From the NCBI GenBank assembly GCA_016840385.1, contig JAEOSL010000061.1, positions 1 to 21,180 of the forward strand: DNA of 21,180 bases, in the 5' to 3' direction. The DNA comes from Candidatus Thorarchaeota archaeon (GTDB taxonomy: Archaea; Asgardarchaeota; Thorarchaeia; Thorarchaeales; Thorarchaeaceae). Below, one piece after another: positions 13,433 through 21,180 of this stretch; the stretch's first letter is position 1, and each line of letters starts with the position of its first letter. Under the pieces are notes generated by a model, which was not told the origin of the DNA, searched no databases, and saw only the letters and a program-made list of their open reading frames with translations. The translations under genes and the position numbers were made by a program.

Positions 13433-13487
13433 TTTGAAGCTACCACAATAATTATGACATCTCTCGTTGAAAGATGAGTCCGCATCA

Positions 13488-13493
13488 GAGGTG
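13488..13493 (+). promoter_or_regulatory. GAGGTG Shine-Dalgarno favouring a TTG start
   Basis: GAGGTG lies 7 bases before TTG 13501, in frame with the amidohydrolase. The upstream in-frame ATG 13474 has no such site, and it would place this site inside the coding region. Confidence 0.6.
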
Positions 13494-13500
13494 TAATTGT

Positions 13501-14895
13501 TTGCCATCTAGTTCTATATTGATCAAGAATGGGTATATTCTCACACTTAATCCTCAACGTCAGATTCTCCGTGATGGAGCAATCTACATAGAAGATGAGA
13601 AGATTGTTGAAGTTGGAAAGGCTGAGGACCTCAAGGGGCACAAAGCTGAGAAAGTCATTGATGCAAAGAACAAGATTGTGATGCCAGGTCTCATCGACAC
13701 GCATGTTCATCTAGCCCAAGCTCTGATTCGAGGATGCGCAGATGACGTTGCTCTTGTTGACTGGCTCAAGAAGTATGTCTGGGTTCTTCAAGGTAACTTC
13801 ACTCATGATGATGGAAGGGTTTCCGCAGAACTCTGTATGGCTGAGATGGTACGAACTGGAACCACCTCATTTGTTGAATGTATGATTCACTCTCGATATG
13901 GTTTTGATGGCATTGCTAAGGCAGTCGAGAAGGTTGGAATGAGAGGAGCACTCTCAAAGATTGTTATGGATTCCACGGGTTATGCTGATAGTGCGGACAT
14001 AATGTATCCTGGAATGGTCGAGAATGCAGAAGAATGCTTGACCGAAGCCGAACAGATGTACAACAAGTGGCACGGGAAGGCAGATGGCAGAATTCAGGTC
14101 TGGTACGGTCTAAGGTCTCTTGGAGGAGTTACTCCAGAATTGTTCAAGGATGTTGCTCGCAAAACTCGTGAGAAACACACACACATGACCATGCATCTTG
14201 GAGAAGTAATTGATGACGTTCGTTATGTCAAGGAGAATTATGATACAACTCTCACAGGATTCGCACGTGACCACGACCTACTTGGTCCTGAGATGATTTT
14301 CGCTCATGGTATCCACTTTGAAGATGCTGAGTTGAAGGTGTTAGCTGAAACAAAATCGAATATTTCACATTGTCCTGCAAGTAACACAAAACTTGCTTCT
14401 GGATTTGCTAAGATTCCTCAAATGCTTAATCTGGGTGTGCCTGTTTCATTGGGTTGTGATGGTGGACCGAGTAACAATACCTATGATTTGATTCGTGAAA
14501 TGCGTCTTGCAGCTCTTATTCACAAGGCTGTCGTGAGCGATCCACTTGTTGTCAGTGCGGAGAATGTGATTGAGATGGCCACTCTTGGTGGTGCTGTAGC
14601 AATGGGCATTGATGATAAAGTTGGGTCTCTAGAAGCTGGAAAGCTTGCTGACATTATCCTCATCGATATGCATGATCTTGGTCTTACACCCTCAGTGAAC
14701 CCTGTTTCGAACCTAGTCTACAGTGGAAATGGTCTGAGTGTCGATACTACCATGGTCAATGGTAAGATCCTGATGAGCAACAAGCAGCTCCTGACACTTG
14801 ATGTAGAGCAGGTCAAGAGCAAGGCACGCACTCACATTATTGACCTGTTAGAGAGGGCTGAAACTGATATCAGCCCCAAGTGGCCAATTCTCTAA
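13501..14895 (+). CDS. Amidohydrolase of the MtaD/SsnA deaminase type
   Basis: This 464-residue metal-dependent hydrolase belongs to the branch containing 5'-methylthioadenosine/S-adenosylhomocysteine deaminase, SsnA and atrazine chlorohydrolase-like enzymes. Metal and catalytic motifs are GLIDTHVHLAQ (H68, H70), MHLGE (H232, E235), FAHGIH (H269), SHCPASNTKLASG (H290) and GCDGGPSNN (D320). A small beta domain formed by both ends, as in the family, brackets the barrel. The likely reaction is hydrolytic deamination of a purine-like or other N-heterocyclic amine; the exact substrate is unknown. The start is placed at TTG 13501 because of GAGGTG at 13488-13493; ATG 13474 would add nine residues unlike the family N-terminus. 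It follows the kinase gene on the same strand and converges with the ABC permease across only four bases. Confidence 0.85.
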   Translation: MPSSSILIKNGYILTLNPQRQILRDGAIYIEDEKIVEVGKAEDLKGHKAEKVIDAKNKIVMPGLIDTHVHLAQALIRGCADDVALVDWLKKYVWVLQGNFTHDDGRVSAELCMAEMVRTGTTSFVECMIHSRYGFDGIAKAVEKVGMRGALSKIVMDSTGYADSADIMYPGMVENAEECLTEAEQMYNKWHGKADGRIQVWYGLRSLGGVTPELFKDVARKTREKHTHMTMHLGEVIDDVRYVKENYDTTLTGFARDHDLLGPEMIFAHGIHFEDAELKVLAETKSNISHCPASNTKLASGFAKIPQMLNLGVPVSLGCDGGPSNNTYDLIREMRLAALIHKAVVSDPLVVSAENVIEMATLGGAVAMGIDDKVGSLEAGKLADIILIDMHDLGLTPSVNPVSNLVYSGNGLSVDTTMVNGKILMSNKQLLTLDVEQVKSKARTHIIDLLERAETDISPKWPIL

Positions 14896-16905: not shown

Positions 16906-17673
16906 CTATTTCACGTGGTCTACTTTCGGAAACGGTTCTTCACCTTTGAGATCAACAAGGAACTCGTACGCTCTAGCTGTTTCCTCATCTCCGCCCTCGA
17001 TGAATAATGTGATTGAACCCTCTGCTCCATTAACACCACCTGCAGAAATTGGCATTGCTTGAACGTCGAATAGTGCTTCGAGGGCTTCAATCTCAGTGAA
17101 GGCCATCCCCTCATGAAGTGCAATTGCTCCAACAGGTGTTCCAATGGCGTAGTCCCATTCACCTTTTCCAAATTGTCCACAGAATTCACTGTAAGCCACT
17201 GGGATTGATTTCTCAAGACCTACTGCAACTATGAGCTTGATATTCCTCGCTGCTACAGCACCAAGAAATACACCAACAGTACCTGCTGTAGGATGTGCTA
17301 GGAGGACTATGGGAACGTAATTTTCATCCAATGCATTCGCACTTTTGATAATCACATCATCAGGTCCTAATTTGTCAAGGATATCGATGACTTTTGTATT
17401 CTCCAAATATTCTCCTTTGTGGAAGATAGCATCAGTGAACCTCTTTGTACTATCAGTTACCGCGAGACCCTTGGGAACAACAATGCCTGCAATATGGCGA
17501 GTCTTATCGTATTCACCGAGTATCTCTTCAGCAATATATCCCGAGGTGGTCCCCATTGTGATACATAGGTACCCGTTCTTCATGGCGTTCTGTACAAGAT
17601 CTGTGGCCAGAATGCCACGTGCTATCAATCTCTTACTCTCAGCTGGTGTTAGTGTGGCTAGTAGTTTCTTCAT
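16906..17673 (-). CDS. Conserved protein of unknown function, 255 residues
   Basis: I have no functional name for this protein, although its sequence has the look of a conserved archaeal/anaerobe family. It is soluble and glycine-rich with alternating beta/alpha character. Notable stretches are MGTTSGYIAEEILG (40-53), IAGIVVPKGLAVTD (61-74), DVIIKSANALD (106-116), AHPTAGTVGVFLG (126-138), AVGLEKSIP (150-158) and ISAGGVNGAEGS (209-220). The Gly-Thr-Thr-Ser loop and repeated GG/GT turns could bind a phosphate or nucleotide, and a NagB/RpiA-like fold is one guess, at low confidence. GGAG lies 9 bases before ATG 17673. The gene starts 12 bases after purB and 27 before the ABC ATPase, so it is an operon member. 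The setting hints at purine or nucleotide metabolism, unproven. Confidence 0.75.
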   Translation of the reverse strand: MKKLLATLTPAESKRLIARGILATDLVQNAMKNGYLCITMGTTSGYIAEEILGEYDKTRHIAGIVVPKGLAVTDSTKRFTDAIFHKGEYLENTKVIDILDKLGPDDVIIKSANALDENYVPIVLLAHPTAGTVGVFLGAVAARNIKLIVAVGLEKSIPVAYSEFCGQFGKGEWDYAIGTPVGAIALHEGMAFTEIEALEALFDVQAMPISAGGVNGAEGSITLFIEGGDEETARAYEFLVDLKGEEPFPKVDHVK

Positions 17674-17685
17674 GGTGGCTAACTC

Positions 17686-19032
17686 CTATTTCTTGTGTAC
17701 CGATTCAGCTTCTCGGACAATCCGTCGCGAGGTTTCTCTGATATTGTTGTAATATTCCTCTAGTTGTAACTGCTCCAAGTCAAGAATACCTGAGAGATGT
17801 GCATCATTTCTCACTGCATCCAATAGGCTTGTGTCAGATGCCTGAGCGGTGTTACTCAGGGCTCGAAGTTTTTCATGTGCTTTTGGTCTTTCTAAACCTG
17901 CTTTTGTGAGTAGGGTTACAACGTATTCACTCAGGATTGAATCGTTAGAAAGGTTGAGGTTCCTCTCAACAGCTTTTTTGTCAATCTCAAGGCCTTCAAT
18001 TACTCGATTCATCTCTCGGACCATATAGTCAGTAAGAATGAATGCTTGAGGAATGATGAACCGTTCTGCTGAAGAATGTGATATATCCCGTTCCTCCCAA
18101 CTAACAACATTCTCTAGGGCTGGGGGAACTAACGATCTCACGATTCTCGCTAGACCGGATAACTTCTCACAGGTTACTGGATTTCGTTTGTGTGGCATTG
18201 CTGATGAACCAACTTGCTTTCCTTTCGCAAAGGGTTCGTAGGTCTCAGCAATCTCAGTTCGCTGCAGATTCCTCAGGTCCGTGGCAATCTTGTCAATGGT
18301 TGATGCTAGATTAGCTAGGGAAGTAATTGCCTCAGCAAGACGGTCTCGTTGAATGATTTGTGTGGTTGCGATTGGTACGTTGAGTCCAAGGGTTTCTAGA
18401 ACCTTCTTTTGAATATCGAATCCGGATGGACCTAGTGCAGCATGGCTACCAGTCGCCCCTGAAATCTTACCAACTCCAGTACTCTCCTTGGCACTAAGAA
18501 TCCTCTTCATGTGACGGTGAAATTCCTCAAACCAGACTGTGAAACGAATTCCGTATGTGATTGGAACTGCGTGTTGTCCATGAGACCGACCAACAGCAAT
18601 CAGGTCTTGGGTTTCCTTGGCTCTATCTAGTAGTGATTTGCATAGCGAGGCAATCTGAGGAATTAGAATCTCAAATGCCGCGTTTAATTGGAGCCCGAGT
18701 GCAGTATCTTTGATATCGTTGCTTGTGAGTCCAAAGTGGATCCACCGCGCCCCAGGTCCTTCACACTTCTCTGCAATGGCTTCGAAGAGAGCTACTACGT
18801 CATGTCGAGTTTTCTTCTCGATTTCCATGGTTCTTTCGAGGGTGACAATATCTGGTTTCGCAGTTGTGCAAATATCCGCAGCTGCTTCCTGGGGGATCAA
18901 ACCCATCTCAGCTTGTACTTCAGCTACTGCCGCCTCAATACTCAACCACAGTGAATGACGGTGTTCCTCCTCAAAGACGGTCACCATCTCTGGATGACCA
19001 TATCTTCCATAGTCAATAGGACTGACAGGCAT
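17686..19032 (-). CDS. purB: Adenylosuccinate lyase
   Basis: This 448-residue enzyme of the fumarase/aspartase superfamily acts twice in purine synthesis, cleaving SAICAR to AICAR and adenylosuccinate to AMP with release of fumarate. The signature loop GSSAMPHKRNP lies at 275-285, with its catalytic serine in the SS pair. Other active-site stretches are KTRHDV (H77), GLTSND (101-106) and GRSHGQHAVP (H151/H154). I placed the start at ATG 19032 (MPVSPIDYGRYG), which has GGAG just upstream and matches family length. An in-frame ATG at 19101 would add 23 residues unlike the family. It is the first gene of the minus-strand operon with the unknown protein and the ABC exporter, and it diverges from the carbamoyltransferase-like gene. 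The dyad at 19073-19099 lies in its leader or promoter. No other pur genes are present. Confidence 0.93.
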   Translation of the reverse strand: MPVSPIDYGRYGHPEMVTVFEEEHRHSLWLSIEAAVAEVQAEMGLIPQEAAADICTTAKPDIVTLERTMEIEKKTRHDVVALFEAIAEKCEGPGARWIHFGLTSNDIKDTALGLQLNAAFEILIPQIASLCKSLLDRAKETQDLIAVGRSHGQHAVPITYGIRFTVWFEEFHRHMKRILSAKESTGVGKISGATGSHAALGPSGFDIQKKVLETLGLNVPIATTQIIQRDRLAEAITSLANLASTIDKIATDLRNLQRTEIAETYEPFAKGKQVGSSAMPHKRNPVTCEKLSGLARIVRSLVPPALENVVSWEERDISHSSAERFIIPQAFILTDYMVREMNRVIEGLEIDKKAVERNLNLSNDSILSEYVVTLLTKAGLERPKAHEKLRALSNTAQASDTSLLDAVRNDAHLSGILDLEQLQLEEYYNNIRETSRRIVREAESVHKK

Positions 19033-19072
19033 GATACTCCAATCTCGCTGGTTTTTGAAAATCCCTTGCCTT

Positions 19073-19105
19073 GATATGGTTTGCCCACAAACCTGTATCA
19101 TATTT
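19073..19105. promoter_or_regulatory. Interrupted inverted repeat and TATA-like box between divergent genes
   Basis: GATA-T-GGTTTG-CCCA-CAAACC-TG-TATC (19073-19099) is a dyad with a perfect 6-base core and 4-base outer arms. It is followed by a TATA-like TCATATTT (19098-19105), centred about 23 bases before ATG 19125. That distance suits a leaderless transcript of the carbamoyltransferase-like gene. The dyad lies 40-67 bases before the purB start. It may be a shared operator; only the repeat itself is seen. Confidence 0.45.
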
Positions 19106-19124: not shown

Positions 19125-20087
19125 ATGAATCACTCTAACTATCTGAATACCATGGACTCCAGAGCAGTAACAGAGATTCTCAAGGTTGCTCATGAAATCG
19201 AAACCAGTGGATTCTCCAAAGTTACCAGAATTCTTCAAGACCCGTTCGTTCTCGGTACTATGTTCCACAATGCTGAATCTAGAGAGCAACATATCTGTGA
19301 ACTCACTGGTGCTCGTTTGGGAGTACCTGTTGTTGACCTTAGCTGGAGAGATGTTGAGTCAAAAGAAACCTCCGCCTTGCTTGATGAACTGCTAATGGCA
19401 GAAAGCACTGTAGATCTACTTCTTACTGCTTTCAACAGTAAGGAAACCTTTGGTGAAGGTAGGAAATTGACAACAAAGTTCACTGGTGCTTCTAAGGGTC
19501 CAATAGTGAGTCTTCACGATGACATCTATAACTGGCAGACAGCTCTCTCACATGTTTTAGGATTCCAGAATCGTATCGGAAACCTCTCTGGAAAACGAGT
19601 TGTTGTTTCTTGGGGATTTGGCTCTAATTTTGCTAGTCCTGCAGTCGCACATGGACTGATTACTACCAGCGCTCTAGCTGGTGCAGATGTTCGAGTGGTA
19701 GAACCTCCAGACTTTCCCACACTTAATCGTGTAAGAAAAGAAGCAGCGGAATCTTCAAGGTCTGTAGAAGTAACCTCTGATTATAGAAATGCGTTCAGTG
19801 ATGCGGATGCAGTCTACGTACTAAACTGGTTCCGGCTTAATGATTTCAATCATCCAGAACGAAATGTGAACCATGTAAGCAAGTACAATGACTGGTATCT
19901 CACAAAGAATCTTCTTCCAGAATCCTGTATTCTTTCAACCGACCCCTCAATTCAATCAGGTCTCTCAATTGAACCCGAACTGCTTCAAGATCCACGTTGT
20001 ATCAACTCATCATGGTTATCACGAAGAGTCCAAACTCTTGCTGCAACAATACATTACGCTCTTCATTATGAATGCTCAATTACCTGA
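19125..20087 (+). CDS. Carbamoyltransferase-fold protein with degenerate active site
   Basis: This 320-residue protein has the aspartate/ornithine carbamoyltransferase layout. The N-terminal domain carries a helix MDSRAVTEILKVAHEIE. The C-terminal Rossmann-like domain is marked by GKRVVVSWGFGSNFASP (156-172), ALAGADVRVVEP (183-194) and DADAVYVLNWFR (226-237). The substrate motifs are largely lost. The carbamoyl-phosphate loop (STRTR) reads ESREQ at 51-55, HPxQ reads YNWQ at 135-138, and the HCLP loop is replaced near 268-275 (CILSTDPS). It may bind a different ligand, catalyse another transfer, or be regulatory. The start ATG 19125 has no ribosome binding site and seems leaderless; ATG 19152 is an alternative. 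The next gene overlaps it by 20 bases. Fold assignment is fairly sure; function is unknown. Confidence 0.7.
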   Translation: MNHSNYLNTMDSRAVTEILKVAHEIETSGFSKVTRILQDPFVLGTMFHNAESREQHICELTGARLGVPVVDLSWRDVESKETSALLDELLMAESTVDLLLTAFNSKETFGEGRKLTTKFTGASKGPIVSLHDDIYNWQTALSHVLGFQNRIGNLSGKRVVVSWGFGSNFASPAVAHGLITTSALAGADVRVVEPPDFPTLNRVRKEAAESSRSVEVTSDYRNAFSDADAVYVLNWFRLNDFNHPERNVNHVSKYNDWYLTKNLLPESCILSTDPSIQSGLSIEPELLQDPRCINSSWLSRRVQTLAATIHYALHYECSIT

Positions 20088-21180
20088 CCTTCATAGAGCT
20101 TTTATCGAACGGTGTATATCATCTCGTGAGATGTGGCGTATCATTCGACCTGATTCACTTAGAGTTTGGAAAAACCCAGAGGTAGTACGTAGACTATCAA
20201 GATACAGAGCAATAATTGACAAGGAACGTTTGGCAAAATATCTGATTGCTAAGAATTATCCATTCGCAGGAAGCCTCACTCAATCTACTGAGCAATTGTG
20301 GGAACTTCACGGTCAGATATCTATCAAATTTCGAGAGCATGTTACCCACGTAGACAGGATGGAGATAGTTCCATCCGAGAATCGCCTATCAACGAGTTTC
20401 TTGGACCTGAAGATTGAATTGGCACATCGGATTCTTGCAGACTGTCACTTTTGTGAACGCAAATGTGGTGCAGATAGGACCAAAGATGAGAAGGGATGGT
20501 GTAAACTTGGTTCTGAATCAAGGGTCTCTTCTGCATTCCTCCACACCGGTGAAGAAGCCCCGCTTGTGCCCTCGGGTACTATATTCTTTTCCTCTTGTTG
20601 TCTTGGTTGTGCCTTCTGTCAGAATGCTGATATTTCAACCAATCCGAATTCAGGACGTGTTGTGAGTTCCGAAGGCGTTGCTGCAGTTGCAGAGGGTCTC
20701 CACAGGGATGGTGCACTGAACATCAATTACGTTGGTGGTGATCCAATTCCTAATACTCACACCATCCTTGGTTCTTTACCATATCAGACATCGAATGTTA
20801 CTCAACTCTGGAATTCGAACCTCTATTGCTCTGAAGAAACGATGGCTCTTCTAGCTGATGTGTTTGATGTGTGGTTACCTGATTTCAAATATGGGAATAA
20901 TGAGTGTGCAGAGCGACTCTCGGGAGTCAAGAACTATTTCGATATTGTTTCTCGGAATCACTTGATTGCCTATAATTCCGGCGAGGTGATAATTCGTCAT
21001 CTTGTGATGCCCAACCATCTTGAGTGTTGTACAATTCCAATTCTGGAATGGGTGGCTGCGAACATGCCAAATTGCATCGTAAACATCATGGGTCAATATC
21101 GCCCCGAACACAGAGCTCGTAGTGAGCAAGATAAATTCCCTGACATCTCTCGAAGGGTAAGTGCTGAGGAGATGAATCTA
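20068..21180 (+). CDS. PflA/PflX-like radical SAM protein (COG1313 type), partial
   Basis: The frame stays open to the window edge, giving 371 residues without a stop. An N-terminal extension of about 120 residues precedes a cysteine motif C126-x2-C129-x3-C133...C145 (CHFCERKC, then KGWC). The radical SAM motif is C177-x3-C181-x2-C184 (FSSCCLGCAFCQN), which matches the FSxCxxxCxxCQN pattern of pyruvate formate-lyase activase homologues. NYVGGDPIPN (about 220-230) is the GGDP/GGEP motif that contacts SAM, and WLPDFKYG follows later. It should bind a [4Fe-4S] cluster and cleave S-adenosylmethionine to make a radical; the target is unknown. The start ATG 20068 overlaps the carbamoyltransferase-like gene by 20 bases, so the two are co-translated. 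No glycyl-radical enzyme is in the window. Confidence 0.85.
   Translation, partial: MNAQLPDLHRAFIERCISSREMWRIIRPDSLRVWKNPEVVRRLSRYRAIIDKERLAKYLIAKNYPFAGSLTQSTEQLWELHGQISIKFREHVTHVDRMEIVPSENRLSTSFLDLKIELAHRILADCHFCERKCGADRTKDEKGWCKLGSESRVSSAFLHTGEEAPLVPSGTIFFSSCCLGCAFCQNADISTNPNSGRVVSSEGVAAVAEGLHRDGALNINYVGGDPIPNTHTILGSLPYQTSNVTQLWNSNLYCSEETMALLADVFDVWLPDFKYGNNECAERLSGVKNYFDIVSRNHLIAYNSGEVIIRHLVMPNHLECCTIPILEWVAANMPNCIVNIMGQYRPEHRARSEQDKFPDISRRVSAEEMNL

Follow-up and report, generated by a model that had tools for sequence, protein, structure and literature searches.

A transcarbamylase-like protein family of Thorarchaeota with replaced carbamoyl-phosphate residues, encoded beside a radical SAM gene

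Can a transcarbamylase-fold protein do without the residues that define the chemistry of these enzymes, and is it then bound to the enzyme encoded next to it? Both questions are raised by the end of a 21,180-nucleotide stretch of Candidatus Thorarchaeota DNA (contig JAEOSL010000061.1 of assembly GCA_016840385.1, forward strand; the whole stretch is called the window here), in which a gene for a transcarbamylase-like protein, the first gene, is followed by a gene for a radical S-adenosylmethionine (SAM) enzyme. An earlier note, made from the sequence alone, had described the first gene as a carbamoyltransferase with a degenerate active site and had proposed the two genes as one functional unit. 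The explanation that we favor, with about even confidence, is that the first gene encodes a neofunctionalised, class-specific paralogue on the transcarbamylase fold that no longer uses carbamoyl phosphate and whose cleft has been rebuilt for a different ligand. We regard it as a novel offshoot of a known fold because its defining residues are replaced and because the gene is not tied to the radical SAM gene. If this is right, a whole clade has kept the fold, and purifying selection has persisted with the chemistry-defining residues replaced, which would make it a testable case of an old enzyme fold gaining a new ligand.

Fold and loss of the carbamoyl-phosphate motifs

The first gene and its principal sites lie in the window as follows.

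19125..20087, + strand: open reading frame (ORF) of the transcarbamylase-like protein, 320 amino acids as called (Pfam OTCace, AlphaFold/VIA-align)
19275..19289, + strand: former SxRT(R) phosphate-binding loop, now E51-S-R-E54-Q55
19518..19541, + strand: former HPxQ region, now D132-D-I-Y-N-W-Q138-T139
19824..19865, + strand: N234-W235 ... F241-N-H243-P-E245-R246-N247, the family's conserved 240's-loop block
19935..19946, + strand: former HxLP motif, now S-T-D-P (residues 271 to 274)
20025..20027, + strand: R301, aligned with the C-terminal arginine of ornithine transcarbamylase (OTCase, R319) and N-acetylornithine transcarbamylase (AOTCase, R322)

The true start of the gene is probably at 19152 (residue 10) rather than 19125, because a 311-amino-acid database protein, P0003, begins there and is identical to the window protein from that residue on. 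The two-domain alpha/beta fold of transcarbamylases, which the earlier note had recognized, is present by both a Pfam match (OTCace, 1.7e-10) and an AlphaFold/VIA-align match, and the combination of fold match and motif loss is solid. In the alignment, the SxRT site of the window protein reads E-S-R-E(-Q) at residues 51 to 55 and the HCLP site reads STDP at residues 271 to 274, just as had been read from the bare sequence (STRTR to ESREQ, and HCLP lost). The HPxQ motif is gone as well, but the four letters given earlier as its replacement, YNWQ, were off by one residue; in the gap-free register, H-P-C-Q falls on N136-W137-Q138-T139.

Neither HPxQ nor HxLP occurred in any of 81 family sequences, a set that counts the window protein twice (P0001 and P0003) and in which at least six members are fragments that may not span every motif site. 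An SxRT string was present in one of the 81, at residue 290, off-site. Because all three motifs are absent on-site across the family, their loss is not a local mutation, and close relatives with intact motifs, which the earlier note had named as the evidence that would count against it, did not appear in this set. The nearest two proteins found outside the family, P0203 and P0204, retain all three motifs. The result matters for annotation, as 20 of the 78 listed relatives are named 'ornithine carbamoyltransferase' by one source, a name for which their residues give no support. Alignment A3 omits the protein of the window itself (P0003) along with six short members (P0045, P0062, P0066, P0067, P0071, and P0077); P0201 and P0202 are apparently the L117 and L118 proteins that it already contains.

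A residual transcarbamylase activity would require that the carbamoyl-phosphate site has been displaced, with R301 retained and the glutamine now at 138, one position before its usual place. Among 88 aligned rows, Q138 is kept in 85 and R301, the one listed carbamoyl-phosphate contact that is widely kept, in 83, and position 53 is arginine in 40; transcarbamylase-like sequences without essential motifs have also been noted before (PMC4581275, from which the roles of the contact residues are likewise taken). Set against this, the threonine of SxRT (position 54) is glutamate or aspartate in 87 of the 88 rows, the arginine at 106/112 of transcarbamylases aligns to T101, where 78 rows have threonine, and position 136 is histidine in merely 3. 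We consider a displaced site improbable. That carbamoyl-phosphate chemistry is unlikely, as had been proposed, is well supported by the family-wide motif loss and by the conserved acid in the old phosphate loop.

AOTCase (PDB 3kzc and 3m5c) shares 20 to 21% identity with the window protein. Its contacts for carbamoyl phosphate, as listed in PMC4581275, are lost or variable in the window family save for the C-terminal arginine, and its second-substrate glutamate and lysine are replaced in the window protein. The knotted transcarbamylase YgeW (PDB 2yfk and 3q98), unlike the window family, retains the carbamoyl-phosphate site according to PMC4581275. The length of the proline-rich loop of knotted transcarbamylases is kept in the alignment of the window protein, but the loop is not proline-rich.

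Clade and distribution of the family

In a tree built from 19 family members and 16 canonical proteins, the members fell together on one side of a branch with 100/100 support. Of 227 Asgard genomes, 33 gave matches at an E value of 1e-75 or better; these 33 all belong to the 47 genomes of the class of G001 (hereafter the class), and none of the 180 Asgard genomes outside the class gave a match at this level. Part of the gene is also present at a contig end in G217, a 34th genome of the class. The other 20 matching genomes scored more weakly (2e-34 to 5e-31), and the six of these weaker matches that were extracted all carry STRT and HPxQ. Of the 17 loci given by a pattern-based scan of GTDB contigs, 16 carry the title Thorarchaeota and one 'archaeon', and the source-named matches of both window proteins were nearly all from Thorarchaeota. 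As far as searched, that is, across the GTDB contig scan, the 227 Asgard genomes, and a profile search with 7993 candidates listed, the family appears bound to one class. One contig of a viral collection (L018) encodes a sequence with 35% identity across part of the transcarbamylase-like protein.

Canonical transcarbamylase paralogues occur in every class genome. The ratio of nonsynonymous to synonymous substitution rates (dN/dS) of the transcarbamylase-like gene was 0.12 to 0.13 against two relatives, showing that it is under purifying selection.

Conserved residues and a candidate ligand site

A new set of residues is nearly invariant in the family, including D132, Y135, Q138, W163, H176, R202, N234, W235, H243, E245, R246, W297, and R301. 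Residues D132, W163, R202, N234, W235, W257, G112, P194, and F197 are invariant in all 88 rows. Mean entropy was 1.15 bits in the loops after strands 2 to 7 versus 1.76 bits in the loops before strands (p 0.0012, a rough value because the 88 rows are related sequences), and it was 2.15 bits in the old phosphate loop. The premise of this comparison is that the side after the strands is where transcarbamylases hold their substrates. Judged by this pattern, the conserved residues would face the inter-domain cleft, and we read the conservation as that of a rebuilt ligand site rather than a decayed one. The phosphate loop is variable with a conserved acid, and HPxQ, HxLP, and the strand-2 phosphate-binding arginine are gone; on that reading, the carbamoyl-phosphate site has been dismantled, and the nearly invariant new set has taken over from the old residues. 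The cleft may bind, and perhaps turn over, a different small ligand, which would be likelier to place a cationic or amino group than an acyl phosphate at the old phosphate end.

Several observations weigh against a rebuilt cleft, the first of them drawn from a comparison with the radical SAM protein and with two neighbors on the other side of the first gene.

17689..19101, - strand: adenylosuccinate lyase purB, divergent neighbor, with a likelier start near 19032 by eye
16909..17673, - strand: F2, a conserved 255-amino-acid protein with no match in Pfam or NCBIfam

The mean pairwise identity of the first-gene protein is about 0.35 (0.35 to 0.38) versus 0.67 to 0.79 for its neighbors (means of 0.69, 0.69, and 0.68 for the radical SAM protein, purB, and F2), and it is the lower value in 230 of 231, 105 of 105, and 153 of 153 pairs, respectively. 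The canonical OTCase-type protein of 30 class genomes has a mean identity of 0.80. Such fast divergence would also be expected of a weakly constrained scaffold. Moreover, of the 20 low-entropy polar positions, the tested loop windows (or 296 to 303) take in just 8; the other 12, H176, R202, H243, E245, and R246 among them, sit at strand ends, in the following helices, or elsewhere. Conservation at strand ends often has structural reasons, which may explain some of what is seen here. These points, together with the lost catalytic motifs and the canonical paralogues in every class genome, speak for a pseudoenzyme, which would act without a ligand as a scaffold or regulator and perhaps pair with the cell's real transcarbamylases. 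We nevertheless find a pseudoenzyme doubtful, because the near-invariant set is new, specific, mostly polar, and enriched after strand ends, and a bare scaffold has no obvious need of it.

The neighboring radical SAM gene

20131..21180, + strand: radical SAM enzyme, conserved start ATG 20131, ORF cut by the window end
20443..20502, + strand: four-cysteine motif C126-x2-C-x3-C-x11-C145
20596..20619, + strand: radical SAM CX3CX2C motif, C177/C181/C184

A full copy, 99% identical to the window's radical SAM protein, has 387 amino acids. The protein has both the radical SAM CX3CX2C motif and the core fold of pyruvate formate-lyase activase; compared with the pyruvate formate-lyase activating enzyme of PDB 3cb8, it shares the core and adds an N-terminal part (residues 22 to 148) with the four-cysteine motif. 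With the query cut by the window end, the NCBIfam PFLA score was 20.2 bits against a cut-off of 231.75. Many of its relatives are named 'putative pyruvate formate lyase activating enzyme' by one source (among the 120 of 6566 matches listed), and the gene is presumably of the type labeled COG1313. In our reading, the first gene is not an obligate partner of this enzyme with its activase-like core. We found no full-text paper on a Thorarchaeota carbamoyltransferase, a COG1313 radical SAM, or a PflX radical SAM, and only an unrelated entry for a transcarbamylase pseudoenzyme.

The 20-base overlap between the two genes that had been reported hinges on an ATG at 20068, which is not the conserved start. 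Most aligned orthologues begin at Met-Trp, here at 20131, which leaves a gap of 43 bases after the first gene. The same 43-base gap is found in the relative L001, which has no in-frame start further upstream, and residues 1 to 20 of the modelled 387-amino-acid copy have a mean predicted local distance difference test score (pLDDT) of 47 to 49. Of 27 distinct loci, 5 offer an overlapping in-frame start, and the window is one of them. The N-terminal extension and its four cysteines are present as had been described but are not unusual, since all 36 aligned Asgard homologues have the extension, with C126/C129/C133/C145 invariant; 8 of the 36 belong to non-class genomes, where no transcarbamylase-like partner was found.

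Gene order and co-occurrence

The 33 genomes with the first gene were classified by eye, and three (G195, G210, and G220) were left undecided at contig ends. In 22 of the 30 decidable genomes, the radical SAM gene adjoins the first gene on the same strand with nothing between them, a count that includes G193, whose neighbor is truncated, and G221, whose neighbor is cut by the contig end. One or two ORFs intervene in four genomes (G188, G189, G191, and G218), and the genes are not adjacent in another four (G002, G203, G213, and G219). In G213 and G219 the radical SAM gene is on another contig than the first gene; G213 was scored as not adjacent because no first-gene match appears in the 0.8 kb that precede its radical SAM gene. 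A radical SAM fragment in G203 lies at a contig end on the strand opposite to the first gene; a contig-end fragment in this orientation (L009 2855-3226) would reflect an inversion or a misassembly.

The survey of gaps covered 30 loci, counted as 27 because they hold second copies of three genomes (L121, L123, and L028). In 21 of the 27 the genes are on the same strand and separated by 42 to 78 bases, a spacing that suggests co-transcription, probably in most of these genomes. Spacing and adjacency are also what a dedicated two-gene system would produce, in which the transcarbamylase-like protein would either be modified by the radical SAM enzyme or present a substrate to it. The nearest fold match to the modelled core of the radical SAM protein is an activase whose structure includes a peptide substrate, which would suit such a role, and the two genes are associated across the 47 class genomes (30 with both, 4 with the first gene only, 1 with the radical SAM gene only, and 12 with neither; p 4e-7). 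Three of the four first-gene-only genomes have that gene at contig ends, and G217 is counted through its partial match at a contig end. No gene fusion was seen in the Pfam columns of the 78 matches listed for the first protein and the 120 of 6566 listed for the second.

However, the unrelated neighbor F2 gives nearly the same table when put in place of the radical SAM gene (30, 4, 2, and 11; p 5e-6), so the co-occurrence signal is regional, and protein distances of the transcarbamylase-like protein correlate more highly with those of F2 (0.79) than with those of the radical SAM protein (0.60). Of the 12 genomes with neither gene, 11 also lack F2, and here loss and incomplete bins are indistinguishable. 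Among loci with both genes of a pair, the first gene and the radical SAM gene are adjacent in 20 of 24, F3 and F2 in 18 of 18, F2 and purB in 12 of 13, and purB and the first gene in 13 of 16. Because the segment is syntenic as a whole and other pairs are kept as well or better, the recurrent adjacency is real but not specific.

The radical SAM gene also occurs in 131 of the 180 Asgard genomes outside the class, none of which has the partner, and the pair comes apart within the class. In the draft genome G192, the radical SAM gene is found without the first gene, on a contig separate from F2-purB, and in the draft genome G002 the first gene is followed by about 6 kb of sequence in which no radical SAM gene was found. 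The near-single-contig genome G193 has an intact first gene with only residues 1 to 227 of the radical SAM protein found beside it; the last third of the protein was not found. Of the earlier proposal of one functional unit, the recurring adjacency stands (a lack of it had been named as evidence against the proposal and was not observed), and the coupling does not follow from it: a dedicated modification system is possible but unproven, and we hold it to be rather unlikely. Likewise speculative and unlikely is the view that Thorarchaeota have a new modification pathway linked to radical SAM chemistry, in which a transcarbamylase that arose by duplication would be the half that binds the substrate or is the target. 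Its cleft would have been rebuilt for a non-phosphorylated amine-bearing ligand, and the ancestral radical SAM enzyme would have been recruited to it in this class alone.

Other genes of the region

A link to the downstream sugar-nucleotide and glycosyltransferase genes was considered, since their order recurs and the radical SAM gene adjoins F4 in 9 of 17 loci. It was set aside because in the 8 loci inspected outside the class the radical SAM gene stands beside other genes, such as a proteasome-subunit gene in 4 of them. A link to purine metabolism through purB was rejected, as purB is not next to the first gene in several loci.

F2 is present in 32 of the 47 class genomes and adjoins an ABC ATPase in every one of the 18 loci that have both. 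A further gene is separated from the radical SAM gene by several others.

13474..14892, + strand: amidohydrolase, best NCBIfam match 5'-deoxyadenosine deaminase (409.7 bits, cut-off 522)

Radical SAM enzymes usually release 5'-deoxyadenosine as a by-product.

Transcarbamylase paralogues are often near one another in other genomes, as in L132, which has SLRTR and SVRTR copies. In G193, two other paralogues (L109 12669-13778 and 16879-17982) are found no more than about 10 kb from the transcarbamylase-like gene. The DNA that precedes the radical SAM gene in G192 (L127 1-2909), where other genomes carry the transcarbamylase-like gene, contains repeated translated units that by eye resemble a CRISPR array and two small ORFs whose translations, also by eye, resemble a HEPN/nucleotidyltransferase pair.
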